The translations under genes and the position numbers were made by a program. DNA of 24,258 nt from IMG/VR virus record IMGVR_UViG_3300044619_003069, positions 1 to 24,258 of that record. One strand, given 5' to 3'. This document shows positions 3,046 through 24,258 of this stretch, piece by piece. The notes under the pieces are model-generated. The model did not search any database. It was not told where the DNA came from and saw nothing but the letters and a program-made list of their open reading frames with translations. Numbering within the stretch: the stretch's first letter is position 1; the number at the start of each line of letters is the position of its first letter. The DNA is from a virus.

Positions 3046-3958
3046 GAGCTCCTAACAAAATGACTTGTCGCCGCTGATGGCTTGTGGTGTGGTATAAGTT
3101 CTGTCCGGTGGTAGAAGACTCGTGTGTTCAAGGAGGAACCCACAGATGGCTGCGAGATTGGTGTCGGATGAACTTCGGAGCGTGATTGAACCCCTGATTC
3201 CCCAGCATCCGTCCCGCCCACGCGGAGGGCGTCCTCCGGTCAGCGATCGGATGGTGCTGACGGGAATCTTGTTTGTGCTGAAGAGCGGCATTCCCTGGGA
3301 GATGTTGCCTCAGGAGATGGGCTGCGGCAGTGGCATGACTTGCTGGCGACGGTTGCGTGACTGGCAGTCTGCCGGTGTCTGGGAAAAACTGCACACAACT
3401 TTGCTTGACCAACTGCGTAAGGCGGATCAGATTGAATGGTCGCGTGCCACCGTGGACAGTGGCACGATTCGAGCCGACGGCGGGGGCGGAAAAACAGGAC
3501 CAAATCCCACAGATCGACGCAAACCGGGAAGCAAACATCATGTACTTTCTGATGCGAATGGCATTCCGCTGAACGCAATTCTGACCGGTGCGAATCGTCA
3601 CGATGTGACTCAACTGCTGCCACTCGTCGACAGCATACCACCCGTCGCTGGAAAACCCGGCCATCCGAAGAAGCGTCCAGTGTCCCTGTCCGCAGACCGG
3701 GCATATGACTCACAACCACATCGTGATGAACTTCGGCATCGAGGGATTGAACCGCACCTTGCCAAGCGCAACACGCCGCACGGAAGTGGATTGGGAGTCT
3801 ATCGCTGGGTAGCCGAACGCACCCTGAGTTGGCTCCACCAATTTCGCCGCCTCAGAATCCGATTTGAACGCAGAGCCGATATCCATGAAGCTCTCATGGC
3901 ACTTGGCGAAAGTCTGATTTGCTTCCGAACCCTCTCGCACGAGTTTTGTTAGGGGCTC
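3046..3958 (+). mobile_element. IS5-family insertion sequence (913 bp)
   Basis: Bounded by imperfect 15-bp terminal inverted repeats: GAGCTCCTAACAAAA at 3046-3060, and the reverse complement of GAGCCCCTAACAAAA at 3944-3958 (one mismatch). It holds one transposase gene whose stop codon lies inside the right repeat, as is usual in compact IS elements. No convincing target-site duplication is seen: the flanks are TTT on the left and TAA on the right. The exact outer boundary could therefore be off by a few bases, or one flank was altered by the neighbouring IS630-type element. Confidence 0.8.
3146..3952 (+). CDS. IS5-family transposase (DDE)
   Basis: 268-residue cut-and-paste transposase acting on the terminal repeats of its own element. 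The N-terminal ~85 residues match the IS5-type DUF4096 region (SDELRSVIEPLIP, GGRPPVSDRMVLTGILFVLKSG, IPWEMLP). The DDE catalytic part follows: the first Asp in ATVDSGTIRADGGG, the second in SADRAYDSQ, and the Glu in YRWVAERTLSWLHQFRRLRIR. These positions and the length fit the IS427-like branch of IS5, here in one uninterrupted frame rather than two frameshifted ORFs. The start is the ATG at 3146 because AGGAGG lies 9 nt upstream; the ORF could open earlier at 3122, but without that signal. It looks intact and may be active. Confidence 0.93.
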   Translation: MAARLVSDELRSVIEPLIPQHPSRPRGGRPPVSDRMVLTGILFVLKSGIPWEMLPQEMGCGSGMTCWRRLRDWQSAGVWEKLHTTLLDQLRKADQIEWSRATVDSGTIRADGGGGKTGPNPTDRRKPGSKHHVLSDANGIPLNAILTGANRHDVTQLLPLVDSIPPVAGKPGHPKKRPVSLSADRAYDSQPHRDELRHRGIEPHLAKRNTPHGSGLGVYRWVAERTLSWLHQFRRLRIRFERRADIHEALMALGESLICFRTLSHEFC

Positions 3959-3979: not shown

Positions 3980-5126
3980 GGGACAGATGGGTAAAACAGG
4001 AACTCGCAATCACTTGCGTCAAGTTCGAAGATGAACAAGTGAAAGGAGTTCCTTGTGAGCATTGTGTCGGAAGTTGTGCGGCAATGGAAGCGTTTGAGCA
4101 AGCCGGCGCGGGATTTCCTGAACCGAGAAGCGATGACTGGCCGGAACGCCGAGTTTCGGATGCGCTGCAAGATCATTCGGAATCTCGCTCGCGGTGAAAC
4201 TCCAATGCAGATCCATCGAATTCTGGGCTGTAGCCGTTCGCAGGTCTATCGAATGTCGCACCGGTTCGTGAAGAACGGCATCGTGGGTCTGGTTGATCAG
4301 CGAGAGGAAAACGGCCCCACGAAAGTTTTGGAGGAATACGCGAGTGAGGTCCTCGCCGCCGTTGCGGGTTCGCCTCGCGAGCATGGGTACGACCGTCCCA
4401 CTTGGACGCAGGAGCTGTTGATTCTCGTCGTCCGGAAGAAAACGAGTGTTGGGATCAGTCGAACGACGATGTGTCGTTTGCTGCAACGTCTGAACGTCCG
4501 CAATGGTCGGCCGAAACCATACGTCATGTGTCCGTGGCCACAGCGACGAAAATCCCGGCGATTAAACGACATCAAGCGGCTGGAGAAAAAGCTGCCAAGG
4601 CATCATGTCATGCTCTATGTGGATGAAGTGGACATCCACTTGAATCCCAAGATCGGCAATGACTGGATGTTGAAGGGGCAACAAAAGCAGGTCCTGACAC
4701 CAGGACAGAATGAGAAGTGGTACCTGGCTGGAGCACTGGATCACCAGAGTGGTCGCCTGCATTGGGTGGAGGGGACGAGCAAGAACAGTGCCCTGTTCAT
4801 TTCGCTGGTCGACGATCTGGTTCAAAAAAGGTACCGCAACAAGAAAGTGATTCACCTCGTTCTGGACAACTTCAAGATTCACAGCAGCAAGGCCGTCCAA
4901 GCCGCAAGCGATCGCTGGGGAAAACGCGTCCAGTTTCACTTTCTGCCGCCCTACTGCCCCGATGCGAATCGGATCGAACGGAGATGGAAGGATCTTCACG
5001 ACAATGTGACGCGAAACCACACCTGCAGGTCAATGGACGAACTCATGGCGTGTGTGCGACGCTACCTGTGCATCCGCCGCAGAACGGGAAAGCATGGCTA
5101 CTGTGCGGCCGCATGACTCCTGTCCC
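3980..5126 (+). mobile_element. IS630-family insertion sequence, ends approximate
   Basis: An IS630-type transposase gene flanked by short inverted GGGACAG / CTGTCCC motifs at 3980-3986 and 5120-5126. The motifs are only 7 bp and do not extend well, so these ends are a guess. IS630 elements normally duplicate a TA dinucleotide, which I could not pair convincingly. The left end lies within ~25 bp of the IS5 right repeat, so one element inserted next to the other or in its border. Confidence 0.5.
4055..5116 (+). CDS. IS630-family transposase
   Basis: 353-residue DDE transposase of the Tc1/mariner-related IS630 family. The N-terminal helix-turn-helix region (residues ~25-75) contains IIRNLARGETPMQIHRILGC and SRSQVYRM. 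A winged-helix part follows to ~150. The catalytic core has the first Asp in MLYVDEVDIHLNPK (~195), the second Asp in HLVLDNFKIHSSK, and the Glu in PDANRIERRWKDLHDNVT. The start is GTG at 4055, with AAAGGAG ending 6 nt upstream; no better ATG exists nearby. Length and motif order are typical and nothing is broken, so it is probably functional. Confidence 0.92.
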   Translation: MSIVSEVVRQWKRLSKPARDFLNREAMTGRNAEFRMRCKIIRNLARGETPMQIHRILGCSRSQVYRMSHRFVKNGIVGLVDQREENGPTKVLEEYASEVLAAVAGSPREHGYDRPTWTQELLILVVRKKTSVGISRTTMCRLLQRLNVRNGRPKPYVMCPWPQRRKSRRLNDIKRLEKKLPRHHVMLYVDEVDIHLNPKIGNDWMLKGQQKQVLTPGQNEKWYLAGALDHQSGRLHWVEGTSKNSALFISLVDDLVQKRYRNKKVIHLVLDNFKIHSSKAVQAASDRWGKRVQFHFLPPYCPDANRIERRWKDLHDNVTRNHTCRSMDELMACVRRYLCIRRRTGKHGYCAAA

Positions 5127-6204: not shown

Positions 6205-7905
6205 TCATTCCACATCGGCCGGGCGTGGTCCATGCCCCACCTCACACCACCAATCCACCTTCGCTCGCCAGCGAGTCCCCCGCAGTTCGGCATAGAACGT
6301 CGGATCGTAATCCCCCCGTCCACCGTGGTGGATCACGTGCTCATCCAACACGGACTTCCGCAGGATCACGCACCCGAACCCCTGCCCGCCGATAACCTGC
6401 ACGCCGTTGCCCCGCTCGGCGAAGATCCGTCCGTCTTGGTCCCACGCCACGTAGCCGGGGTGGAACCGGGATTGGTACACCCCGGAGACTGAGACGGTGG
6501 TGGCGTCGAACGATCGCAGCAGCCGCTGGCAGGTGTCGACCGGCGGCAGGATGTCGTCCTCCACGATCCACAGGTACTCGGTGGTGGTCTCAGCCCGCAC
6601 CCGGTTGTAGATCCGCGGCATCGCCACTTGCACGCGCTGGCGGACCCCCGGTCCCCGGCGGTTCTCGTCCGCCAGACCCGGATCGGCCACTGCCAAGGCG
6701 AGGTACTGCACCTGGGAATAGTCACACGTCGCGAGCCATTGCCTGACGGTCCGCCCGAACTCCGCTGACTGGCTGGTATCGACGAGCAGAAGCCGCGTCT
6801 GGTCGTGGGGCCAGGTCTGGTGTTCGAGGAACTTTGCCATCCGGGGCCAAAACTCCGTTCGACCCGACAGCGGGATCGCGAGCGTGACCTGCTCCAGCGC
6901 CAGGGCCGCCCGCTCGAAGTACGGGACCTCCGCCGCATTCATCTGGGCCAGCTTCGAAGCGGCGTGCTTCCGGTACCGGTACACCGCCGAACTCTTCGCC
7001 AACCGCCAGCCGAACGGGACGATCCGCCGCCAGAGGAACCAGTCGTCATTGGCTTGGGCCGGACACTCGATCTCGAACACCCGCGACATCTCGAGCGCCG
7101 TGCGGCGGACCAGGCTTCCCGCATGCACGAAGTTTTCCCGGTGGATCCGGTTCCCTGGCTCGGCCGGGTACTCGATTCGTCCCGTCTGATCCCCGAACCG
7201 TTCCACATCCGAGTAGACGATCCCCACGGCCGGGTTGTCCAACAGCGGCACTCCCGCCTCGAGGTAGTCGGGGGGCAGAATATCGTCCGCATCCAGAAAG
7301 CAGACCACACTGGCCCGCGTGGCGGCCAACCCCGCGGCCCGGGCGCGGTGGACGTCCCGCACGTCAACCCGTTCGTACCGGACGCCACGTGGGGCAAACT
7401 GGGCGGCCACGGCGGGGGTGTCGTCGGTCGAGGCGTCGTCGACCACCAGGACCTCGGCCGGCGGCCGCGTCTGGACCAGCACACTGTGGATCGCCTCGGC
7501 AAGAAACCGGCCGTAGTTGTGGCACACGACGATCACCGCCACATCCGTGGGGGCTCCAACCGCTCCCGGTTCCCCCAAGGCCACGCTCGGACACCCCTGG
7601 CAGCATCCTGGGATCTCGGCGACGCGTTTGCTGAGGGTGCATTCCCCGTGCACCTCGCAGGCAAACACCTTGAGAGCCACGCCCCCGCCACAGGGCGCAC
7701 AGGGGACGCGGCGGACTTCCCCGCCCCGGTGGCGACAGGTCCGTTCGCTCCGTGGCGGCGGAGGGGGTGGTGTGGGACTGGGAGCCGAGCATTTTCGGCG
7801 GATCGGAAAGACACTCGCCGTGGCGGGCTCGCCGCAGCGGAGGCAATGAACAGTGACGGCAGTCTCGAGCCGCCCGACCTGCTCCCCCGGAAATTGACAG
7901 TGCAT
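6205..7905 (-). CDS. Two-domain glycosyltransferase with Cys-rich N-terminus (phage-encoded)
   Basis: 566 residues. Residues 1-110 are Cys-rich (C21, C24, C39, C57, C69, C72, C83, C89, C101, C102, C105) with a Pro run at 45-51, suggesting zinc-knuckle-like metal binding. Residues ~120-340 form a GT-A family 2 glycosyltransferase: a nucleotide-binding start DVAVIVVCHNYGRFLAEAI, DDAS at 156-159, the DADD metal motif at 205-208, and NDDW near 286-289. Residues ~341-566 look like a second GT-A-like half, with LLLVDTSQSAEF and WIVEDDILPP (446-455) mimicking the same two motifs. It probably uses nucleotide sugars to decorate a phage virion protein or host surface; donor and acceptor are unknown. 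The ATG at 7905 lies 10 nt after the fibre gene and it is the last gene of the operon. No obvious terminator follows. Confidence 0.85.
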   Translation of the reverse strand: MHCQFPGEQVGRLETAVTVHCLRCGEPATASVFPIRRKCSAPSPTPPPPPPRSERTCRHRGGEVRRVPCAPCGGGVALKVFACEVHGECTLSKRVAEIPGCCQGCPSVALGEPGAVGAPTDVAVIVVCHNYGRFLAEAIHSVLVQTRPPAEVLVVDDASTDDTPAVAAQFAPRGVRYERVDVRDVHRARAAGLAATRASVVCFLDADDILPPDYLEAGVPLLDNPAVGIVYSDVERFGDQTGRIEYPAEPGNRIHRENFVHAGSLVRRTALEMSRVFEIECPAQANDDWFLWRRIVPFGWRLAKSSAVYRYRKHAASKLAQMNAAEVPYFERAALALEQVTLAIPLSGRTEFWPRMAKFLEHQTWPHDQTRLLLVDTSQSAEFGRTVRQWLATCDYSQVQYLALAVADPGLADENRRGPGVRQRVQVAMPRIYNRVRAETTTEYLWIVEDDILPPVDTCQRLLRSFDATTVSVSGVYQSRFHPGYVAWDQDGRIFAERGNGVQVIGGQGFGCVILRKSVLDEHVIHHGGRGDYDPTFYAELRGTRWRAKVDWWCEVGHGPRPADVE

Positions 7906-10359: not shown

Positions 10360-12360
10360 TTAGGCAAATTGCAGACCGCCCTGATTGGCCTTCCGCAACA
10401 GGCGCTGGGTGTTCTTGGCAGTCGCTTCCGTGGCCAGGGCGGTTCGGTCGGCCGCACTCCCCCCCGCCAATCCCCGGATCCCAGCTGCATTGAACGAACC
10501 TTGCGTGGAGACCTTGGCGTCCCCCAGCTGTCCCAGTTCCGTTGCTCCTGCGGCTTTGTTCCGCAGGCGACGTTGGCGCGGTTCCAGCCCCTGTTCCGCC
10601 TCCGCCCGCTGCTTGGCGGCAGCGGCCAGAGCGTCATCCAGGGCGGTGCGGGCCGCCGCGACCTCTTGCTCCAATCCCTGGCGACTGGCGACGGACTGGT
10701 CTTGGCGCTGAGCCTGGGCCGTCTGCCGGGCGTCCTGCAGAGCCTGCTGGGAACTCTCCCGATCCGCACCGATCTGCTGCAGGCGGGCCTGGCGGGCCTG
10801 CTCGCGCTGGCGGATCTGGTCGTCTTGAGCCGCCTGGCGATCCACCCCCCGCTGCGTGACTTCCTGATTGATCCGTTCGACCTCGGCCGCGACGTTGATT
10901 TCGTCGTCGAACAGGGACTGGAGCAGAACCCACCCCTGGCGAATGAAGCCAATCGCCGTGTCCCAGTTGGCCATCAGGAAGTTGGTGAACACGGTCCAGC
11001 CATCGCTCAAGAGTCCCAGGGTCTCTTCCCAGCCAGTCTGGATCAGCGACCAGGCAGTGGTCATGAGCTCGGCCAACCCGAAGGTGGCGTCGGTCCAGAC
11101 CGACAGAAACAGTTCCTGGAACGCCAGCCACTGTTGTTCCAGAAAGGCCAGGGCTTTCTGCCACTCGAGTTTCAAAAGCAGCCCGACGATCCGCATGGCC
11201 AGTCCGAAGTTGGCGGTCATCAACGCATCGCGGATTCCGGCGAAGGCCGCAGTGGCGTCCTGCCAGAGATCTCCCAGCACAGTCTGCAACCACTGCACGG
11301 CGGCCCCCCCCATGTCGGTCGCCGTCACGAAGTAGGTCCCCAGCGCCAGGACTCCCGCTGCCACCAGCCCCAGGGGAGTGGCCAGCGCGGCGATCGTCGA
11401 GCCCAGTGTGGCGAAGACCCCCACAACAGCCGGTACCGCCGCCGCCACCATCCCAAACACCGCTCCCACTGTCAGGAGCACCTGTTCGACGACGACCAAG
11501 GCGACGCCGGCGGCCGCCACCCCGAGTGCGATCTTGCCGATCGTCACCAGGAATGCCTTGTTGATCCGGACCCAGTCGACCGTCTGCCGGATCACCCGGG
11601 TGGCGATGTCCACCAGGCTGTGCAGTTCGGGCAACAGAGTCGCCCCCAGCGAGAAGGCACTCGCCTTGATTTGCATCCACAGTGTGGCCAAAGAGTCCCC
11701 GAAATCGTCCGCCGCCTGGGCATCCTCCGTGGAGAGCACCAAGCCCAGCTTGGCCGCCTGATCCTGATACTTGGCGAGGCCGGCCGCCCCCTCGGCCAGG
11801 AGCGGGAGGAGCAACGTCCCGGATTTGCCGAAGATGTCGAGCGCAAACGCAGTGCGGAGTGCGGGGTTCCGGACGTGACTGATCGCCTCGGCGATCCGGG
11901 AGAATTGCTGGTCGGGAGTCAGCTGCACCAGCTGGGCGACGGAAAGTCCCAGTCGCGAGAGTGCCGTCTGGGCCGTCTTGGAGCCCGCGGCCGCCTGGAC
12001 GAGAGTGTCCTGCATCTTCTTGAGGCCAATCTCGATCGTCCCCAGTTCCGCCCCAGTCTGAGAGGCAGCAAACTCCAGTCCGGACAGCGCCTCGACGGAG
12101 ACTCCAGTCCGGGCACTGAGGTCCACCAGGGTCCCCCCCATGTCACCAAAGGCCTTGGCCGTGGCGACAATCCCGGCGATCCCCCCGGCCGCGAAGACGC
12201 CCGAAACCATCAGCAACTGCCGCCCCACACCGGAGATGCTCGCTCCGAAGGCCCGGAGCTTCCCCTCCGCCAGCCGCAGCCCCCGGACCAACGGATTGGT
12301 GTCGGCGGAGACTTCGACGAACGCCTTGCCGGCCCGGATCGCACCTGCAGATGCTGCCAT
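10360..12360 (-). CDS. Phage tail tape measure protein
   Basis: 666 residues. It sets tail length during assembly and is threaded through the tail tube. The N-terminal part (~1-260) has the typical helical pattern with GLRLAEGKLRAFGASISGVG and LSARTGVSVEALSGLEFAAS, a motif common to TP901-type tape measure proteins. Residues ~270-350 are strongly hydrophobic (several likely membrane-spanning helices, VTIGKIALGVAAAGVALVVV and following). Residues ~370-470 are Trp-rich amphipathic helices. Residues ~475-595 are a Gln/Arg/Ala-rich coiled coil. At about 0.15 nm per residue this predicts a tail near 100 nm. The ATG at 12360 lies 7 nt after the previous stop, with AGGTGA 8 nt upstream of it. Confident call. 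Confidence 0.92.
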   Translation of the reverse strand: MAASAGAIRAGKAFVEVSADTNPLVRGLRLAEGKLRAFGASISGVGRQLLMVSGVFAAGGIAGIVATAKAFGDMGGTLVDLSARTGVSVEALSGLEFAASQTGAELGTIEIGLKKMQDTLVQAAAGSKTAQTALSRLGLSVAQLVQLTPDQQFSRIAEAISHVRNPALRTAFALDIFGKSGTLLLPLLAEGAAGLAKYQDQAAKLGLVLSTEDAQAADDFGDSLATLWMQIKASAFSLGATLLPELHSLVDIATRVIRQTVDWVRINKAFLVTIGKIALGVAAAGVALVVVEQVLLTVGAVFGMVAAAVPAVVGVFATLGSTIAALATPLGLVAAGVLALGTYFVTATDMGGAAVQWLQTVLGDLWQDATAAFAGIRDALMTANFGLAMRIVGLLLKLEWQKALAFLEQQWLAFQELFLSVWTDATFGLAELMTTAWSLIQTGWEETLGLLSDGWTVFTNFLMANWDTAIGFIRQGWVLLQSLFDDEINVAAEVERINQEVTQRGVDRQAAQDDQIRQREQARQARLQQIGADRESSQQALQDARQTAQAQRQDQSVASRQGLEQEVAAARTALDDALAAAAKQRAEAEQGLEPRQRRLRNKAAGATELGQLGDAKVSTQGSFNAAGIRGLAGGSAADRTALATEATAKNTQRLLRKANQGGLQFA

Positions 12361-12367
12361 GTTGCTG

Positions 12368-12796
12368 TCACCTCACGCGTTGATCGACAAAGACTTTCTT
12401 CAGGACCGTGATCGGAGCCTGGGGCCAGGAAGTTCGCCGGGCTGCGCGGCGCTCGGGCTGGAACTCGGCGGGCTGAAACGGAGTCGCCCGCCGTTTCTCG
12501 TTGCGGTGGCAATTGGCCAGGAGCGCCATCTGGTGGGTGGTGTGCCGCCACCACTCCTCCCGCAATCCCTCAGCCATCCACAAGAGCTCCCGGAGGGTCA
12601 GGGGACCGGGCTCGACACCGACGAGGCCGGCGGTGCGGTAGATGAGCCGCCAAATAGCTCCGCGACTGCCTGGTCGGGCTGGAGCTGCGCCAGCCGCTGT
12701 TCCCCCGCCGCAACCATCGCCCGGACCAGATCCCGTTGCTTCTGGATCGCCGTGGCCAGATGCGTCCGGCGGAGGTTCTGGAAAAAATCGAGCCAC
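12368..12796 (-). CDS. Second tail assembly chaperone ORF (T-like), probably expressed by -1 frameshift
   Basis: This ORF lies in the -1 frame relative to its upstream partner and overlaps it by ~199 nt. The conserved-looking part begins around IWRLIYRTAGLVGVEPG (about 12655) and continues LTLRELLWMAEGLREEWW and LLANCHRNEKRRATPFQPAEF. This is the pattern of the small gene that precedes the tape measure gene in many phages. Upstream of that point the frame has no ATG, TTG or CTG; the only formal start is a GTG at 12796, inside the partner and without a clear ribosome binding site. The -1 frame is open back to the T TTT TTC site at 12781-12787. A fusion would have about 99 residues from the upstream ORF plus ~137 from this one, through a Pro/Gly/Ala-rich linker. 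Its stop is 7 nt before the tape measure ATG. Independent initiation at an ATT (~12655) or internal ATG is the alternative. Confidence 0.75.
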   Translation of the reverse strand: MARFFPEPPPDASGHGDPEATGSGPGDGCGGGTAAGAAPARPGSRGAIWRLIYRTAGLVGVEPGPLTLRELLWMAEGLREEWWRHTTHQMALLANCHRNEKRRATPFQPAEFQPERRAARRTSWPQAPITVLKKVFVDQRVR

Positions 12797-13077
12797 TCCT
12801 GGGTGAACGCTTCTTGGGCCGCCAGGATCGCCTCGCCGCCAAGACTGGCTCCGAACACCTCGTCACTCACTCCGGCAGCGTCCGCCTGCGGCTTGACGAG
12901 GACAAACAGGACATCGCACAGCAGCACGACATCAGTGGCCAAGCGGGTCATCAGGGGGGGCTCCCCCAAGAGCGGTTCCGTCAGGTCCAGCTGCAAGAGC
13001 GACTTGACCCGCTTGAGGGCTTCGATCGTCAGGGAGACCTGCCAGGTCCGTCCCGTGGTGTCGCGAAAACTCGTCAT
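12598..13077 (-). CDS. Phage tail assembly chaperone (G-like)
   Basis: 159-residue soluble, mostly helical protein beginning MTSFRDTTGRTWQVSLTIEALKRVKSLL. Its placement immediately upstream of the tape measure region is that of lambda gpG-type chaperones, which coat the tape measure protein while the tail tube polymerises. The start is either of two adjacent ATGs (13080, 13077). AGGAG sits 3 nt before the first and 6 nt before the second, so 13077 is preferred; both overlap the TGA of the preceding gene. Residues 97-99 (DFF) are encoded across the T TTT TTC heptamer. The last ~17 residues (Ser/Pro/Ala rich) overlap the conserved part of the next ORF and look like filler. Family assignment is by position and pattern. 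Confidence 0.75.
   Translation of the reverse strand: MTSFRDTTGRTWQVSLTIEALKRVKSLLQLDLTEPLLGEPPLMTRLATDVVLLCDVLFVLVKPQADAAGVSDEVFGASLGGEAILAAQEAFTQEWLDFFQNLRRTHLATAIQKQRDLVRAMVAAGEQRLAQLQPDQAVAELFGGSSTAPPASSVSSPVP
12781..12787 (-). promoter_or_regulatory. Candidate -1 ribosomal frameshift site, T TTT TTC
   Basis: On the minus strand the chaperone gene reads GAT TTT TTC CAG. The heptamer T TTT TTC is in exact X XXY YYZ phase with the reading frame. Slipping back one base enters the downstream ORF, which stays open to its stop at 12368. CCAGA/TCTGG complementarity begins right after the site (16-nt loop), closer than usual for a stimulatory stem, so the structural part is uncertain. Confidence 0.55.
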
Positions 13078-13079
13078 CA

Positions 13080-13427
13080 TCAACTCCTGGTCCAAACTGG
13101 AAAAATGCCTTTGCGGATCGACCCGTCACTGTCTGTGATCGTGACGGTCACGTCGTAGTTTTTGGCGGCGACCGCGCCCCCCGGGATGGCCGTGACACCG
13201 TGCGCGATCGCCACTGGGCGTTCGAATTCGTCCCGGAAGATGGTCTGGTTGGGCTGGGCATTGCTGAACGCCAATTCCCCAGGGGGGGTCACGGTGAGCG
13301 AGACCACACTGGCGACCGTGGCAGCCGGATTGACGCCTCGGCTCAGCAGGTCCGTGAAATTGAATCCCAAGGGAGCGGTCTCCCCCGGGATGATCACGAT
13401 CGGTGTGGCTCGGACAGAATCGGCCAT
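13080..13427 (-). CDS. Small beta-sandwich phage protein, possible fibre-tail adaptor
   Basis: 115 residues. The sequence IIPGETAPLGFNFTDLL...ASVVSLTVTPPGE and the ending KNYDVTVTITDSDGS resemble small Ig-like phage proteins described as fibre-tail adaptors: an opening with a source value, a middle with the time-averaged property, and a closing strand that describes differences. I could not assign it more tightly. No membrane segment. The ATG 13425-13427 follows the previous small gene by 12 nt. Its TGA overlaps the ATGATG of the chaperone gene, indicating translational coupling. It sits between the fibre-like genes and the chaperones. Confidence 0.7.
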   Translation of the reverse strand: MADSVRATPIVIIPGETAPLGFNFTDLLSRGVNPAATVASVVSLTVTPPGELAFSNAQPNQTIFRDEFERPVAIAHGVTAIPGGAVAAKNYDVTVTITDSDGSIRKGIFPVWTRS

Positions 13428-13439
13428 GGCCTTCGGTCG

Positions 13440-13640
13440 TCAGCGGTGTCGAATGGTCCCCACGCCCGGGCGGGGGGGAGCGGAACTGGTGAGCCACCGG
13501 CGGGGGAGCGAACCGATTCCCCAGCGCGGACGCAGCGACCCGGTCCCGGCTGGTTGCGAGCCCGTGACGGGAGGGGGGACTGGTTTCGGCCAGTAGCGGG
13601 CCGGAAAGAACCGGGGTCCAAAAAAGCCGGCGGGGAACAT
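13440..13640 (-). CDS. Small Pro/Arg/Phe-rich phage protein
   Basis: 66 residues opening MFPAGFFGPRFFPARYWPK. This Phe/Arg/Tyr-rich opening resembles that of short proteins I associate with structural operons of planctomycete-type phages; function is unknown. The remainder is Pro/Gly/Arg-rich and probably disordered, and the protein is very basic. The start ATG 13638-13640 lies 29 nt after the fibre gene stop; the ribosome binding site is weak (CAGG). The gene fills the gap between the fibre-like gene and the adaptor-like gene on the same strand. An overlapping longer ORF in another frame (13394-13660) has no such features. Moderate confidence that it is translated. Confidence 0.55.
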   Translation of the reverse strand: MFPAGFFGPRFFPARYWPKPVPPPVTGSQPAGTGSLRPRWGIGSLPRRWLTSSAPPRPGVGTIRHR

Positions 13641-13669
13641 GGTGGCGTGCCTGAGACCAACGAAAAATG

Positions 13670-15313
13670 TCAGGTGGGATTGGTGGCGATGGCGGTGCGA
13701 TTGCCTTGGGTGTCGGTCAGCGCGGTGATCCGGTCCTTGGTGTTCTCCTTGTCCCGGAAATGGATCGGCCCCTCGGGGAACCCGTTCGACACTCCGACAC
13801 TGGCCGCCCGCAGCAGGCGCAGGGTTTGCCGGGGCGTTTCGTCGGGCTCGATCCCATCGACCCGATCGAGGAGCGCGTCGGCAACCGCCTCCCGCTCTGG
13901 AGTCGTGAGCGTCATGGCCGCGCCGGGAGCCGCCCGGGTCAGCACCGCCGTGGTGCTGGCGGGATCCGCCGGGAGCAACTCGGTCTGGGCGTGGATCGCA
14001 GCGATCGTCGCGTTGTCGGGAGCGGTGTAGCCGGTTGTGGCCAATCGCGTGCTGGTGGCTACGTCGGTCTTACTGGCAATGGCCGCAATCGTGGCGTTGT
14101 CGGGGGCGGTGTAGCCTGCAGCTGCCAATCGCGTGCTGGTGGCCACGTCGGTCTTGGTAGCAATCGCAGCGATGGTCGCGTTGTCGGGAGCCGTATAGCC
14201 CGCCGTTGCCAGGCGGGTACTGGTCGGGACATCGGCATTGCCGGCAATCGCCAACAGCGCCGTCCGATCGGCCGCCGTGAAATCGACCGCGGTCGTGTCC
14301 ACAATCACACTCTGGCGGCCATACGCCCGCGTGGCTCCCCCCTCGATCACGGAGAACGTCCAATTGAGCTGCTCCAGAGCATCTCCCGCACTGGCGGTAT
14401 AGAGCACCCGGTACCGGCCCGTGCTGACCAGGGACATTGTGGTGCTGCTGAGGCGGCTGGAGAGATCGGTTCCCGCCTGGTTGACCAGGACCAGTGTGGG
14501 AGCCGCGTCCGGCACCTCCATATTGCCCACGTCGTCGTACAGGAATAGCTCGATGCGGTAGAGCGACGTTCCACTATCCGGGCGCTCGAGCACCTCGGGC
14601 AGAGAGATCACCGCGCGGGTGTTGTTTTGGATCGCGGTCACTTCCGCTTGGCTGGCCAACTGGCCGCTGACTCCCGCCAGTTTGTCGACCAGCAGCTTGC
14701 CCAGGCTGCCGAGCGTGGTCAGCCCCGAAGTCAGCACATCCCAGATCGCCTGGACGCCGGCCGCACTGAGTGTGCGGGTTGCCACTGACCACACCGCATC
14801 AAAGGCCCCCGCAGCGAACTTGGCCGCAGTCAGGCTCCCATCCGCCAGTTTGGTTGCTGTGATCGCGTCACTGGCGATCGCTGTCGCTGACACCACATTC
14901 GCCTGCAGTACCCCGACCGTGACATCGACCCGTTGATTGGTGAGCGCCAGGGGAGCGACCCCCAACCAGCGTCCCAGGTCCAGGCGGCCATTGCTGTCGA
15001 TCGCCAACAGTGTGAAATTCGCGGGGACCGTGCACACGATCAAGGGGTCCAGCTGCACATTCGCGGTGGCACTGTTGGCGGAGAACACGAGTACGTCCCC
15101 ATTGCTCTCGGCCGCCGTCACATCGAACGCATAGACCCCCTTGGCGAACACGGCATCCAGTTCCGTGGCGCTGGTATCCGCCAGCGCCACGGGAGCCCCT
15201 CCATCCTTGGAGACATACGCCGTCAGGTTGGCGGCATCCCCCGTCTTGGGAGTGTTGGCGGCCAGGTCATGGGCGTAGAACACGATCTTTTGATTGGCGA
15301 CGTTTTTGAACAT
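13670..15313 (-). CDS. Phage tail fibre-like protein with 28-residue tandem repeats
   Basis: 547 residues from the ATG at 15313 (MFKNVANQKIVFYAHDLAAN). GGGAG lies about 10 nt upstream, and the longer ORF reading through 15505 only overlaps the previous gene. Residues ~1-120 are beta-rich and resemble a virion-docking or Ig-like domain (TGDAANLTAYVSKDGGAPVALA...). The middle has segments such as ITATKLADGSLTAAKFAAGA and AIWDVLTSGL, common in fibre shafts of many phages and metagenomic prophages. Residues ~360-440 carry three near-identical 28-residue units (TSTRLATAGYTAPDNATIAA...). The C-terminus includes NTKDRITALTDTQGNRTAIA. It probably forms a trimeric fibre or a side appendage on the tail. 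It is 5 nt from the preceding gene. The function is inferred from composition and context. Confidence 0.75.
   Translation of the reverse strand: MFKNVANQKIVFYAHDLAANTPKTGDAANLTAYVSKDGGAPVALADTSATELDAVFAKGVYAFDVTAAESNGDVLVFSANSATANVQLDPLIVCTVPANFTLLAIDSNGRLDLGRWLGVAPLALTNQRVDVTVGVLQANVVSATAIASDAITATKLADGSLTAAKFAAGAFDAVWSVATRTLSAAGVQAIWDVLTSGLTTLGSLGKLLVDKLAGVSGQLASQAEVTAIQNNTRAVISLPEVLERPDSGTSLYRIELFLYDDVGNMEVPDAAPTLVLVNQAGTDLSSRLSSTTMSLVSTGRYRVLYTASAGDALEQLNWTFSVIEGGATRAYGRQSVIVDTTAVDFTAADRTALLAIAGNADVPTSTRLATAGYTAPDNATIAAIATKTDVATSTRLAAAGYTAPDNATIAAIASKTDVATSTRLATTGYTAPDNATIAAIHAQTELLPADPASTTAVLTRAAPGAAMTLTTPEREAVADALLDRVDGIEPDETPRQTLRLLRAASVGVSNGFPEGPIHFRDKENTKDRITALTDTQGNRTAIATNPT
13991..14242 (-). 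repeat. Three 84-bp tandem repeats inside the fibre gene
   Basis: The anchor CGTTGTCGGG recurs at 14011, 14095 and 14179, exactly 84 bp apart, each inside highly similar 84-bp units. The units encode 28 residues (TSTRLA.AGYTAPDNATIAAI....). Being in frame, copy-number change would lengthen or shorten the fibre without breaking it. Confidence 0.9.
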
Positions 15314-15318
15314 GCCGG

Positions 15319-16545
15319 TTACGCTCCCAGGAATCGAGCCACAGGTCGTCGGCTTCCAGCGACAGCTGAGGGAGGAGCCTGATGTAAAATCGTCCCCTCC
15401 ACGATGTAGCTGCATAGCGGAGAAGCGGAATTGACGAGCAGTGCCAGTCCCTCCTGAGGACGCAGTCGCAGGCCAGCCACGGGAAGATTGGACCGCACTT
15501 CCCAACCTTGCCTCAGCGAGCGAGCCGGAGCGAAGTTCCCCTCGGCAAATCCTGTCGTAACATCGACGGAAGCCACTCGCAGTCGTGCATTGCGAAACGT
15601 CTGGAGTCTCCGGACGGCCGGTGCATTCGTGCCGGGATAACCGAGGTCCGCGATGGGATCGAGTCCTTCAACCAACTGAATGGTTAGTTCATTCCGTAGC
15701 GAACCCCGTCGCAGCTGCAAGGCGGCGGGCACCGTGTTCCGGGTCGACGCTGGCTGGGGGTTGAGCAGAGTCCCTCCCGTGGCGCGTCGCACCCGCACCA
15801 ACCGCAACGTCGAGTTCTCACTGGCGACTCCACTGGTGGAGTTGTCATAGGAATAGAACCCCGGGGTGAAGGCGTGGATCGCCCGGATCTTGAGCACCGT
15901 GCCCGAACCGACACCGTTGAACACGGTGATCCAGGCGTGGTGCCCTTCGGACGGGAACAATTCCGCCGGCACAACCCAGGAGGAAGTTCCCACATCCAGC
16001 TCCAGATCGCACAGCCAGCCCAAGGGTGCGGGGGGGGTGGCACTGGGGCGGATCGCGATCCCTTCCCCTTCCGCCAATTCCAGAGACTGCAGCACGGCTC
16101 CCTGGCCGGCCTGCCACACGGCTCCCGTGTTGCGGCAAGGCTGTCCCGGGTTCTTGGCTCCCACTCCCGGCAGCCAGGTCGCCAGCCCCCCACTGGTCAC
16201 ACCGATCCCAGGTTCGTTCAGCCAGCTGGAACGGAGCATCCCCGACAACTCGATCGCGTCGACCTGGGTTCGGCAGCTGACCTGGGTGGGAAGCGTGGCG
16301 GCTGTGTTGGTGGCCACTGGGCTGACCGCTGTGCCCCCGGCTTGGGAGCTGATGCGGACCAACTCGACCGTCCCCACGAGCGCCCCGCTCATTGAAGCCG
16401 GAAACGGCACTTCCCGGATGGTCAGCTGCACCAATTCCAGCTCCCGGCGGAGATCCGATCCCTCGGCATTGAACAGGGTGCAGAGGGCCCGATCCGTGAT
16501 CGAGGCAGCGGCGGTGAACCCGAAGTGAAACGTGTCAGTGGCCAT
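15319..16545 (-). CDS. Phage structural protein, likely tail-associated
   Basis: 408 residues from the ATG 16543-16545 (MATDTFHFGFTAAASITDRALCTLFN). This ATG overlaps the stop of the gene before it (TGATG), which decides the start; the open frame further upstream is shadow sequence. It is beta-rich, with no membrane segment or signal peptide. A block near residues 60-75, RISSQAGGTAVSPVATNTAATL, closely resembles RQTVAPTGGTAVTPVAHSTANATL in the preceding gene, so the two share a domain and probably arose by duplication. A second set of motifs (HHAWITVFNGVGSGTVLKIRAIHAFTPGF) also echoes the theme of contacts around a core. It sits between tail tube and chaperones, so a tail-tube decoration or fibre-base role is likely. 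The exact function is unknown. Confidence 0.7.
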   Translation of the reverse strand: MATDTFHFGFTAAASITDRALCTLFNAEGSDLRRELELVQLTIREVPFPASMSGALVGTVELVRISSQAGGTAVSPVATNTAATLPTQVSCRTQVDAIELSGMLRSSWLNEPGIGVTSGGLATWLPGVGAKNPGQPCRNTGAVWQAGQGAVLQSLELAEGEGIAIRPSATPPAPLGWLCDLELDVGTSSWVVPAELFPSEGHHAWITVFNGVGSGTVLKIRAIHAFTPGFYSYDNSTSGVASENSTLRLVRVRRATGGTLLNPQPASTRNTVPAALQLRRGSLRNELTIQLVEGLDPIADLGYPGTNAPAVRRLQTFRNARLRVASVDVTTGFAEGNFAPARSLRQGWEVRSNLPVAGLRLRPQEGLALLVNSASPLCSYIVEGTILHQAPPSAVAGSRRPVARFLGA

Positions 16546-17069
16546 CAGCTGTTTGTGAATTCGAGTTCGACATCGGCCTGGCCGACCGTTTGATTGACGG
16601 AGACCACCACGATCCCCTCGTTTTGACCTGCCCGGCAGGTGAGCGGCTCCACATTGCTGTCGCCATAGCCGGAGTTCCAGATCTCGGCATACGGGACCAA
16701 GGTCAGCATCGAGTCCCAATCCAGCGTCGAGAGGGCTGGCTCATCCGGAGAGTGCAGCAGTTGCCGGAACTGCGAACCGACTGTCACCGTCCGTCCCGTT
16801 CCCACCGAGGTGCCCGCATCAAGCGTCGCGTTGGCGGTACTGTGGGCGACCGGAGTGACTGCGGTGCCACCGGTCGGAGCGACTGTCTGCCGATGGATCC
16901 GCAGGTTATTGAACACCCCTGTGATGGCGGTCGTCTGGTTGTTGAACAACCACATCCGGTAGATACGGATCGTCTTGACCGATGTGTTCACATTGAACAG
17001 ATCGATCATCGCTTTGTTGGCGGCGTATGTGACACCGGAACTTTGTGCATGCCAGGTATCGGCCATCAT
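16545..17069 (-). CDS. Phage structural protein, paralogue of the following gene
   Basis: 174 residues, beta-rich (MADTWHAQSSGVTYAANKAM, TIRIYRMWLFNNQTTAITGV). The segment RQTVAPTGGTAVTPVAHSTANATL is shared with the next gene, as is the general layout of a cytokine-like single compact domain; I read this only as common ancestry within the operon. Two ATGs in tandem (17069, 17066) overlap the TGA of the gene before it, and GGGGAG lies a few bases upstream, so translation is coupled. The last bases overlap the start of the next gene by one nucleotide. No catalytic motif is visible. It is probably a minor virion or tail protein. Confidence 0.7.
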   Translation of the reverse strand: MMADTWHAQSSGVTYAANKAMIDLFNVNTSVKTIRIYRMWLFNNQTTAITGVFNNLRIHRQTVAPTGGTAVTPVAHSTANATLDAGTSVGTGRTVTVGSQFRQLLHSPDEPALSTLDWDSMLTLVPYAEIWNSGYGDSNVEPLTCRAGQNEGIVVVSVNQTVGQADVELEFTNS

Positions 17070-17350
17070 TCACTCCCCACACTGATCACTTTGCCGGTTC
17101 CACAAGTCGCCTGGAACAGCCCGATCCCCTGTGTTCCCTGAACCCGCTGTTGAACGCCTCGAGTCCGCAATTCCCCCAATCGACGGACCATCAACTCCCG
17201 TGTGTCACCTGGCGGCATCCCCGTGACCCGCTGCTGGTTGACCTGCAGTACAAATGCCACCAGCCGCTGCAGTTGGCTCGGGAGCAACGCCCGCGGAACA
17301 TCCGCGATCCAGCCCATGGCCGGGTCATAGTGCACGGGAATCTCGCGCAT
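17066..17350 (-). CDS. Small hypothetical phage protein
   Basis: 94 residues (MREIPVHYDPAMGWIADVPRA...). Not recognised. The middle (LPSQLQRLVAFVLQVNQQRV) looks helical, followed by Arg-rich helix and a short Gly-containing end. No membrane segment. The ATG 17348-17350 lies 11 nt after the tail tube gene with GGGAGAA directly upstream. The stop overlaps the next start, so it is clearly part of the structural operon. It occupies the slot after the tail tube, where small tail accessory genes are common, but nothing in the sequence fixes a role. Confidence 0.7.
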   Translation of the reverse strand: MREIPVHYDPAMGWIADVPRALLPSQLQRLVAFVLQVNQQRVTGMPPGDTRELMVRRLGELRTRGVQQRVQGTQGIGLFQATCGTGKVISVGSE

Positions 17351-17361
17351 GGGTTCTCCCT

Positions 17362-17802
17362 TTACGGAGCGGTGTGCCAGCTGGGGGCATTGGCGGCATA
17401 GGCGGGCTTGATCGTGATGTCGATCAGCATCCCTTCCTCGAGGGCTTCACTGCGGGCGAACTTGAGCACCGCCATCGTCGCCCGCAGTCCCTGATTCCCG
17501 GCGACTGCGATGTCGCCATCCATCACGGCACATTCGATGGTGCTGCGATTGAGGAACGCGTCCCGGAACGCCGTGACATCGGTGTCGGCGGAGTCCCACA
17601 CCATCTGGAACTCAATGCTGGCCTTCTTGAGGGAGGCCAGGACCGCCTCCCAGCCAGCATTGGCCCGGGTGGTCATCGAGGCTTCCCCCGCCTCCAGGTT
17701 GAGAGTCAGGTCGCGGACATTCTTGACCTCATCCCAGGTCGGTGACACGAAGGTCCCGGTGTTCCGGTACAGCTTGCCATCCAGCCCCAGTTTGGCACCC
17801 AT
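17362..17802 (-). CDS. Phage major tail tube protein
   Basis: 146 residues beginning MGAKLGLDGKLYRNTGTF, then WDEVKNVRDLTLNLEAGEASM, and ending with EALEEGMLIDITIKPAY. This is the pattern of short tail tube subunits that stack as rings around the tape measure protein. The start is the ATG at 17802, since GAGGAGA lies about 8 nt upstream; an in-frame GTG at 17808 would leave that signal too close. No membrane segments. It is placed between the presumptive accessory module and the fibre/adaptor genes, an unusual distance (about 4.3 kb) from the chaperones and tape measure. The call rests on sequence style plus operon position. Confidence 0.75.
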   Translation of the reverse strand: MGAKLGLDGKLYRNTGTFVSPTWDEVKNVRDLTLNLEAGEASMTTRANAGWEAVLASLKKASIEFQMVWDSADTDVTAFRDAFLNRSTIECAVMDGDIAVAGNQGLRATMAVLKFARSEALEEGMLIDITIKPAYAANAPSWHTAP

Positions 17803-17842
17803 CAGCACTCTCTCCTCGATCCGAAGGACAGGTTCCGCTCAC

Positions 17843-22571: not shown

Positions 22572-24258
22572 TTACGCTTCCCCCTTACAACGGATCCCGC
22601 CTCGGTAGTCCTGCAGACTGACCCCGAAGTCGTGGAAGCCCCGCATCTGAATCCCCAGGACATTGAAATCCGCATCCGCAGTCTCGATCGTGGGAGACTC
22701 CTGGCCATTGAGGAACGCGACTTCAATCACGGGCAGGTCGCTGGGCTCAGCCAGCAGGTACCACGCCTTGGAGGAGTTCCCCGAGAAGCGGCTGTTGGCC
22801 AGGTACCGCCCGACCTCGACTCGATACTTCCCTTGGTGGGGATTGGTGATCGGGAACTTGGCATTCGGGGTGTTGTCCCGCAGTTCCAGCGACTTGAAGA
22901 GCTGCGACGCGACGGCCGAGAGAGAGGTGGGAACCAGCAGAATGGCCGGCATGAGGCCGATCGGCTGGTTGTCACTGTCGACCTGGTCCATAAAGGCGAC
23001 TTCCGCCTTGGTCAGTCCATCGATCGTCAGGGTGGTATCGGCTCCTGTCAGCAGCGTCTTGTTGGCGGCCGTGAAGAACGCGGCGTTGTTGAGAAACACT
23101 GACCAGAAGACGTCGTTGATCTTCAGGCCCGAGCCGCGGCCGAGCTTGCGGGGGACAGTCGTGATGGCCCCCAAGTCATCATTGATGATGTCCCGGCGGT
23201 CGATCGACAGCATCAACCCGTAGGTGTCGGCCTTGTTGGTGTACGTCTCATTCCCCAGCGTGCCGTGCTTGAGTTCACCCCCAGGGGCGACCTGCTCGTA
23301 GGTGTCCTTCCCAATCAAGCGGTAACTGGTCACCGTCTTGAAGTCGGTGACATTCCGGACGGCGCAGATGTTGCGCCACACCCGTTCCACCGAGAAGAAG
23401 CCTTCCAGCAGAAACTTGTTGGACACCGTGGCCAGAATTTGCCCGATGTCGATCGTGGAGTACGCCGCTTCGACATCCCGCCCGAACGCCGAGCGGAGTA
23501 CCGCTCGACTGTCCCGGAAGTTGCGCCCGGAGTAGCCATTCGCCCAAGCCGCTTCGAGCAACAGTTCCTGAAGACCAATCCCACCTCGAAAGCGGCGGGC
23601 GGCCAGGTCCAATGTCTGCGGCTCAAACAACTGCTCCACCCCGGCATACTTCGAGGACAACAGGCAAGCAGCCTCCAGCACCGTGGAATTCACCGTGTTG
23701 TCCCGCAGATGGACGGCCGGCGCCGTGGGACGCAGTTCCCGCAGTACAGTCAATTCCGCCCGCTGCTCGGACCAACCCTCCCGAATGGCCTGCGCCTCCA
23801 GTTGCGGCCAGCGACCACTGAAGTGCCGTCGCACAGCCGCGATCCGCTCCACCTCGGCCGCAGCCTGGGACCGCAGTTCGGCAACTGTGGCCTGGGGCAG
23901 CCCGGCTGGAGTCCCGACGGGCTCGACCGGCCGGGCCGGACTCCCGGTCCCCTCAACCGAGGGGGCAGCCGCTGGGGCAGGAGTGACCGGATGTTCGACC
24001 ATTGGGGGGTTGGCTGCTTGCAGCGGAGGAACCGTGGTCGGAGGAACTGCGGTTGGGGCAACTGTGGTTGTGGCATTTGGGGTCGGGGAGAACTCGGCAT
24101 CCATGGAGTGCACTCCGGAACTTGGGGACGCTGTGGCGAGCACATTGGCACTGGTCGCACCGTCGGCTCCCAGGTCAACAAAACTGATTTCTCCCAAGGT
24201 GGACTTGCGGACCACATTGGTGGGGCCCACGAAGGAACGACCATTGACCGTGACCGCC
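22572..24258 (-). CDS. Phage prohead protease-scaffold-major capsid polyprotein (N-terminus outside window)
   Basis: No start is needed inside the window: the frame is open to the right edge, and the residues before the formal GTG (24230) read VTVNGRSFVGPTNVVRKS. That stretch and the following LGEISFVDLGADGATSANVL look like the C-terminal end of a prohead protease domain. Next come a Pro/Thr/Ala-rich linker (~45-105 from 24230) and a charged helical stretch (~110-175) that may act as scaffold. The remaining ~370 residues are the capsid domain, with the Mu gpT-like block YGLMLSIDRRDIINDDLGAI, GRGSGLKINDVFWSVF, and the ending GFHDFGVSLQDYRGGIR. In-frame fusion of protease and capsid would keep them at a fixed ratio, with self-cleavage during assembly. 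The gene is truncated at the window edge. TAA at 22572-22574. Confidence 0.85.
   Translation of the reverse strand, partial: AVTVNGRSFVGPTNVVRKSTLGEISFVDLGADGATSANVLATASPSSGVHSMDAEFSPTPNATTTVAPTAVPPTTVPPLQAANPPMVEHPVTPAPAAAPSVEGTGSPARPVEPVGTPAGLPQATVAELRSQAAAEVERIAAVRRHFSGRWPQLEAQAIREGWSEQRAELTVLRELRPTAPAVHLRDNTVNSTVLEAACLLSSKYAGVEQLFEPQTLDLAARRFRGGIGLQELLLEAAWANGYSGRNFRDSRAVLRSAFGRDVEAAYSTIDIGQILATVSNKFLLEGFFSVERVWRNICAVRNVTDFKTVTSYRLIGKDTYEQVAPGGELKHGTLGNETYTNKADTYGLMLSIDRRDIINDDLGAITTVPRKLGRGSGLKINDVFWSVFLNNAAFFTAANKTLLTGADTTLTIDGLTKAEVAFMDQVDSDNQPIGLMPAILLVPTSLSAVASQLFKSLELRDNTPNAKFPITNPHQGKYRVEVGRYLANSRFSGNSSKAWYLLAEPSDLPVIEVAFLNGQESPTIETADADFNVLGIQMRGFHDFGVSLQDYRGGIRCKGEA

Follow-up and report, generated by a model that had tools for sequence, protein, structure and literature searches.

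A conserved T TTT TTC site very probably directs -1 frameshifting in a tail assembly chaperone gene pair of phages from Planctomycetota and relatives

The minus strand of a 24,258-nucleotide viral DNA (the window; IMG/VR record IMGVR_UViG_3300044619_003069) carries two overlapping open reading frames, ORF1 and ORF2, that appear to encode the two tail assembly chaperones of a long-tailed phage or prophage. In all likelihood, a programmed -1 ribosomal frameshift at a T TTT TTC heptamer within ORF1 yields an ORF1-ORF2 chaperone fusion (Table 1). That slippage occurs and how often, what the stimulators contribute and that the proteins act as chaperones are what we infer from sequence. A first-pass annotation of the window had noted T TTT TTC (12787-12781) in phase with the codons GAT TTT TTC of the zero frame, with an overlapping ORF in the -1 frame that was open from the heptamer to 12368, contained no ATG, TTG or CTG before its conserved part and would give a fusion of about 236 residues. 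Each of these statements held for the window, in which the -1 frame is open already from upstream of the heptamer, and the fusion computed from ATG 13077 is 236 aa long. ORF1 starts at this ATG (or at 13080) and stops at a TGA at 12600-12598; relatives start at the Met aligned with 13077. The -1 ORF of the window contains one GTG (12796) and one ATT, neither of them conserved, and no ORF2 start with a well-placed Shine-Dalgarno (SD) sequence was seen in the window. Since TTTTTTC occurs once in these 24 kb and 1.1 times is expected by chance, its presence alone is uninformative; what carries the meaning in the alignments is its place, phase and conservation.

Table 1. Features of the chaperone locus and its neighbours in the window
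Feature	Position	Strand	Remarks
ORF1, gpG-like tail assembly chaperone, zero-frame product	12598..13077	-	159 aa; kept in 100 loci
ORF1 Shine-Dalgarno AGGAG	13084..13088	-	6 nt before ATG 13077; from sequence
SD-like AGGAG, presumed stimulator	12796..12800	-	8 nt 5' of heptamer
Slippery heptamer T TTT TTC, putative -1 shift site	12781..12787	-	same codon in 51/59 clusters
Hairpin CGCCG...CGGCG, presumed stimulator	12748..12771	-	9 nt after heptamer
ORF1/ORF2 overlap	12659..12780	-	zero frame, ORF1 C-terminal helix; -1 frame, Pro/Gly-rich linker of the predicted fusion
ORF2, gpT-like T domain of the predicted fusion, -1 frame	12368..12658	-	conserved in relatives
Tape measure protein gene	10360..12360	-	PHROG tape measure families, E 3e-35
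Tail tube protein gene (Phage_tail_2)	17362..17808	-	several genes away from ORF1

The position of the pair just upstream of a tape measure gene, as initially annotated, was borne out: the tape measure gene lies directly downstream, its ATG 7 bases after the -1 frame stop at 12368, and a tape measure match follows ORF2 in 78 of the 88 related loci with room for one. PF06223 Phage_tail_T, the family of lambda gpT, is matched by 17 of 24 aligned ORF2 relatives (best E 4.1e-5). Members scored singly fall below the Pfam cut-off, and the window's ORF2 alone reached no Pfam match; its structural model is of modest confidence (pLDDT 77) and a fold search gave weak hits, N15 GT appearing weakly among them. 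ORF1 has no consistent Pfam or PHROG family match and its model no PDB fold match; among viral proteins, a tail assembly chaperone gave the model's best match in the fold search (probability 1.00, TM 0.46, E 2.4e-3). No sequence relative of ORF1 or ORF2 was detected in 50,697 deposited phage records. Directly upstream of ORF1 in L092 and L080 is a Phage_tail_2 tail tube gene, and the gene order in relatives runs from tail tube through ORF1 and ORF2 to tape measure. The window has several genes between its tail tube gene and ORF1 (13080-17350, minus strand), one of them of 611 aa without a Pfam match. Elsewhere in the window, a family 2 glycosyltransferase gene (6205-7905, minus) adjoins the tail genes, and a major capsid protein gene (22572-24230, minus; PHROG 4523, 'major head and protease protein'), which may include a fused head protease region, runs off at the edge region. 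Two transposase genes, one IS4/5-like and one with a DDE_3 domain (3122-3949 and 4055-5113, both plus), sit between the tail genes and an RHS/YD-repeat gene at the contig edge (5-2455, minus), the latter possibly host DNA or a phage-borne gene.

Relatives were collected by scanning IMG/VR with ORF1 and ORF2 separately and GTDB genomes with an ORF2 alignment. This gave 100 loci holding both ORFs, the window included, which were reduced to 59 sequence clusters; because the two ORFs were searched separately, the set was not selected for phase. The loci come from IMG/VR contigs and from Planctomycetota, Verrucomicrobiota and Lentisphaerota MAGs; the genome matches are Planctomycetota MAGs (Phycisphaerae, Pirellulaceae, Gemmataceae and others), one Verrucomicrobiae and one Lentisphaerae. 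The hosts are most likely Planctomycetota and relatives. Aligning homologous loci, a check proposed in the first-pass annotation, showed that the heptamer position and the -1 phase are both conserved. Relative to ORF1, the frame of ORF2 is -1 in 100/100 loci, and none of them holds an in-frame ORF1-ORF2 fusion. We looked for relatives with separate, well-started ORFs and for relatives that had lost the heptamer while keeping the overlap; both were absent, heptamer and overlap being conserved together. In one Spirochaetes MAG (L101, 3300-3850, at a contig end) the N-terminal part of ORF1 is replaced by unrelated sequence, the ORF1 C-terminus still being there and in phase; this seeming loss of ORF1 is probably a chimeric contig end.

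The -1 frame contains no stop between the shift site and the ORF2 domain in any of the 59 clusters; over the same interval the +1 frame is interrupted in 53/59, and an equal-sized window upstream of the heptamer has a -1 stop in 31/59. Upon synonymous shuffling, the -1 frame stays open in only 46% of cases on average, and the product of the shuffling probabilities is ~1e-21 if the clusters are taken as independent, an assumption that is overstated since they are related. In five clusters a -1 stop directly abuts the heptamer on its 5' side (0 nt), and in six there is one 12 nt upstream; with stops just 5' of the heptamer, the -1 frame must be entered at or after it. Judged from these stops, the -1 frame is kept open from exactly the heptamer onward.

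Reduced to clusters, the aligned shift codons are T TTT TTC in 51, T TTT ACC in seven and T TTT TCC in one; over the 100 loci the counts are 83 T TTT TTC, 15 T TTT ACC, 1 T TTT CTC (L031) and 1 T TTT TCC (L086), the phase being kept in these last two. T TTT is thus found in 59/59 clusters. Phe is encoded by TTT in all 59 at the shift site as compared with 43/207 elsewhere in ORF1, and the codon before the shift TTT always ends in T although GAC outnumbers GAT 610 to 166. At the three shift-site codons there is no synonymous change at all.

The first-pass annotation had cautioned that the zero frame goes on looking like coding sequence for ~40 codons past the heptamer and had offered a slip near 12655 as a competing model. 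In the alignments, conservation passes from the zero frame to ORF2 at about this point. The caution was right: the stretch is the C-terminus of unshifted ORF1. Between the heptamer and ORF2, substitutions fall mostly on zero-frame codon position 3, and the zero frame is therefore selected in the overlap; ORF1 similarity reaches about residue 144, and the AF2 model of ORF1 (pLDDT 89.6) has a long helix at residues 106-132. Past the start of the ORF2 domain, substitutions move to zero-frame position 2 and the -1 frame takes over selection, which is a change of selected frame where a slip near 12655 would put it. Zero-frame position 3 is also slower in the overlap than upstream (0.24 vs 0.34), as expected if the -1 frame or the RNA adds constraint. 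However, there is no conserved slippery sequence near 12655, the -1 frame is stop-free back to the heptamer (mostly 35-60 codons) in 100/100 loci, which a later slip does not need, and the heptamer, the SD-like element and the hairpin would be left unexplained. We therefore reject a slip near 12655 as very improbable, and zero-frame coding after the heptamer does not count against the heptamer as the slip site. Since that site lies about 60 codons before the ORF1 stop, the fusion would replace, not extend, the last 60 residues of ORF1, its C-terminal helices. The distance from heptamer to ORF1 stop is 180 nt in the window and has a median of 180 (range 111-270) in relatives.

Translation of ORF2 by itself, whether from a non-AUG codon (the ATT before the domain, also put forward in the first annotation, or GTG 12796) or by coupling to ORF1, is hardly to be expected either. 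Such codons exist in the window, and a GTG follows the shift site in most of the T TTT ACC clade described below. However, the ATT is missing even in the closest relative, L002, which disposes of that start, and the GTGs are not conserved between groups, the aligned codon being CTG in L055 and L073. No ATG occurs anywhere in the -1 ORF in the 59 clusters examined, and 47/59 have no ATG, GTG or TTG between slip site and ORF2 domain. Slippage of RNA polymerase, rather than the ribosome, on the T run is most unlikely as well. In principle six T could slip, but longer runs are usually required for polymerase slippage; with only four T, the T TTT ACC relatives have the same phase, and such slippage has no need of a zero-frame heptamer phase, an SD-like element or a hairpin. 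Finally, a sequencing error or pseudogene frameshift, by far the least probable reading, is ruled out by the identical -1 phase in 100/100 loci from unrelated assemblies, with both flanking frames conserved.

Ribosomal slippage at the heptamer is presumably stimulated by two flanking elements. In relatives, AGGA ends 9 nt upstream of the heptamer in 40/59 clusters and GAGG ends 10 nt upstream in 39/59; the duplex energy with the anti-SD is -7.2 upstream of the heptamer vs -3.9 at control sites in ORF1, and conserved Glu-Glu codons account for most of the motif (mean z just -0.39). Downstream, where the first-pass annotation had suggested folding the RNA in search of a stem, we found a hairpin in the window (MFE -10.7, z -1.06). 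When 45-base windows were compared with synonymous recodings, those directly 3' of the heptamer were more stable (mean z about -1.1 to -1.2; Wilcoxon p = 1.6e-8, a value that overstates independence since the clusters are related). Eleven other offsets, one of them just 10 nt beyond, showed no such excess, and the strongest among these was -0.4. A finer scan put the 5' arm ~6-14 nt from the heptamer. We also tried a single conserved hairpin in two registers. With the nucleotides 3' of the heptamer numbered from 0, these were 5-11/39-45 and 9-13/28-32; either one suits no more than 17-19 of the 65 distinct sequences, and there is little covariation. The folding results thus point to a general local hairpin excess only, different stems occupying about the same place in relatives.

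In the mechanism that we propose, most ribosomes would read ORF1 to its own stop and make the 159-aa gpG-like chaperone, while a minority would pause at T TTT TTC, helped by AGGAG upstream and the hairpin downstream. The tRNA-Phe in the P and A sites would re-pair one base back, from TTT TTC to TTT TTT, and the -1 frame would then be read through the Pro/Gly-rich linker into the T domain, giving the 236-aa fusion (...LDFF-PEPPPDASG...-AIWRLIY...). The junction peptide predicted for a slip at the heptamer would span LDFFPEPPPDASG, with ORF1 sequence to LDFF followed by PEPPPDASGHGDPEATGSGPG. By analogy with lambda, the ORF1 part would bind the tape measure protein and the T domain would recruit tail tube subunits.

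Outside the window, the T TTT ACC loci comprise 14 that are nearly identical over the shift site (L055, L059, L060, L062-L064 and L066-L073) and the distant L038. Nine of the 14 were placed on a tree, where they group as a single clade and the closest neighbours of this clade carry T TTT TTC; L038 stands apart on a long branch. The clade, and not L038, has a perfect 8-bp G+C stem, GCCCGCGC/GCGCGGGC, 4 nt downstream of the site. The segment GCGGATTTTACCCCGAGCCCGCGCGACCGGGCGCGGGC, which contains this stem, is invariant at synonymous sites in the clade; no synonymous change is found in the 36-nt block of site plus stem in the 14 sequences, whereas flanking codons do change. In the nearest sister sequences the site is T TTT TTC and the stem is weaker. 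Because a threonine tRNA pairs poorly with TAC, slippage at T TTT ACC would rest on the P-site tRNA-Phe. We regard it as moderately likely that this subclade uses a single-tRNA (P-site only) -1 shift in which the lost A-site re-pairing is offset by the stem. After the P-site slip the A-site codon would become TAC (Tyr), and for L060 the predicted junction is ADFYPEPARPGAG, with Tyr; Thr instead would mean that the A-site tRNA had moved too. Experiments on a dnaX variant support a slip of the peptidyl-tRNA only, after which the next tRNA enters in the -1 frame (PMC5009743). The T TTT ACC variant site appears not to have been described before.

A -1 slip in the tail chaperone gene has long been known from phage lambda, whose gene order is V-G-T-H. 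The relatives' order of tube, ORF1, ORF2 and tape measure corresponds to it, the window having extra genes between tube and ORF1. As with lambda G/GT, the putative -1 shift lies within a pair of chaperone genes that precedes the tape measure gene, the tail tube gene is upstream in relatives and the ORF2 family matches Phage_tail_T. In lambda, both the short and the fusion products are made, and the slip occurs near the 3' end of G (PMC5009743). Its site is G GGA AAG, whereas here the putative site is T TTT TTC, 180 nt before the ORF1 stop, and the fusion would swap the last helices for the T domain. The chaperones of the SEA-PHAGES collection and of Xu et al. share the gene position and the -1 direction, but their mean distances from slip to in-frame stop are 26 nt and 36 nt (PMC10274946). 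The arrangement of an upstream SD-like element, a slippery heptamer and a stem-loop directly downstream also resembles E. coli dnaX, an unrelated gene in which A AAA AAG directs a strong, 50% shift to an early stop (PMC5009743). In freely accessible texts we found no account of a tail chaperone frameshift in planctomycetes. The mechanism is known, and the phage family of Planctomycetota and relatives is apparently undescribed.

These results would add a large phage family of Planctomycetota and relatives to the known range of the lambda-type chaperone frameshift. In this family the predicted fusion swaps, rather than extends, the chaperone's C-terminus, and the T domain would be overlooked or given a wrong start by standard gene callers. 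The T TTT TTC sites with weaker stems and the T TTT ACC sites with a strong, invariant stem provide a matched natural set for asking how shift-site strength trades off against hairpin strength. If the single-tRNA reading of T TTT ACC is true, natural single-tRNA -1 frameshifting would be conserved in a phage family whose close relatives keep the canonical site.
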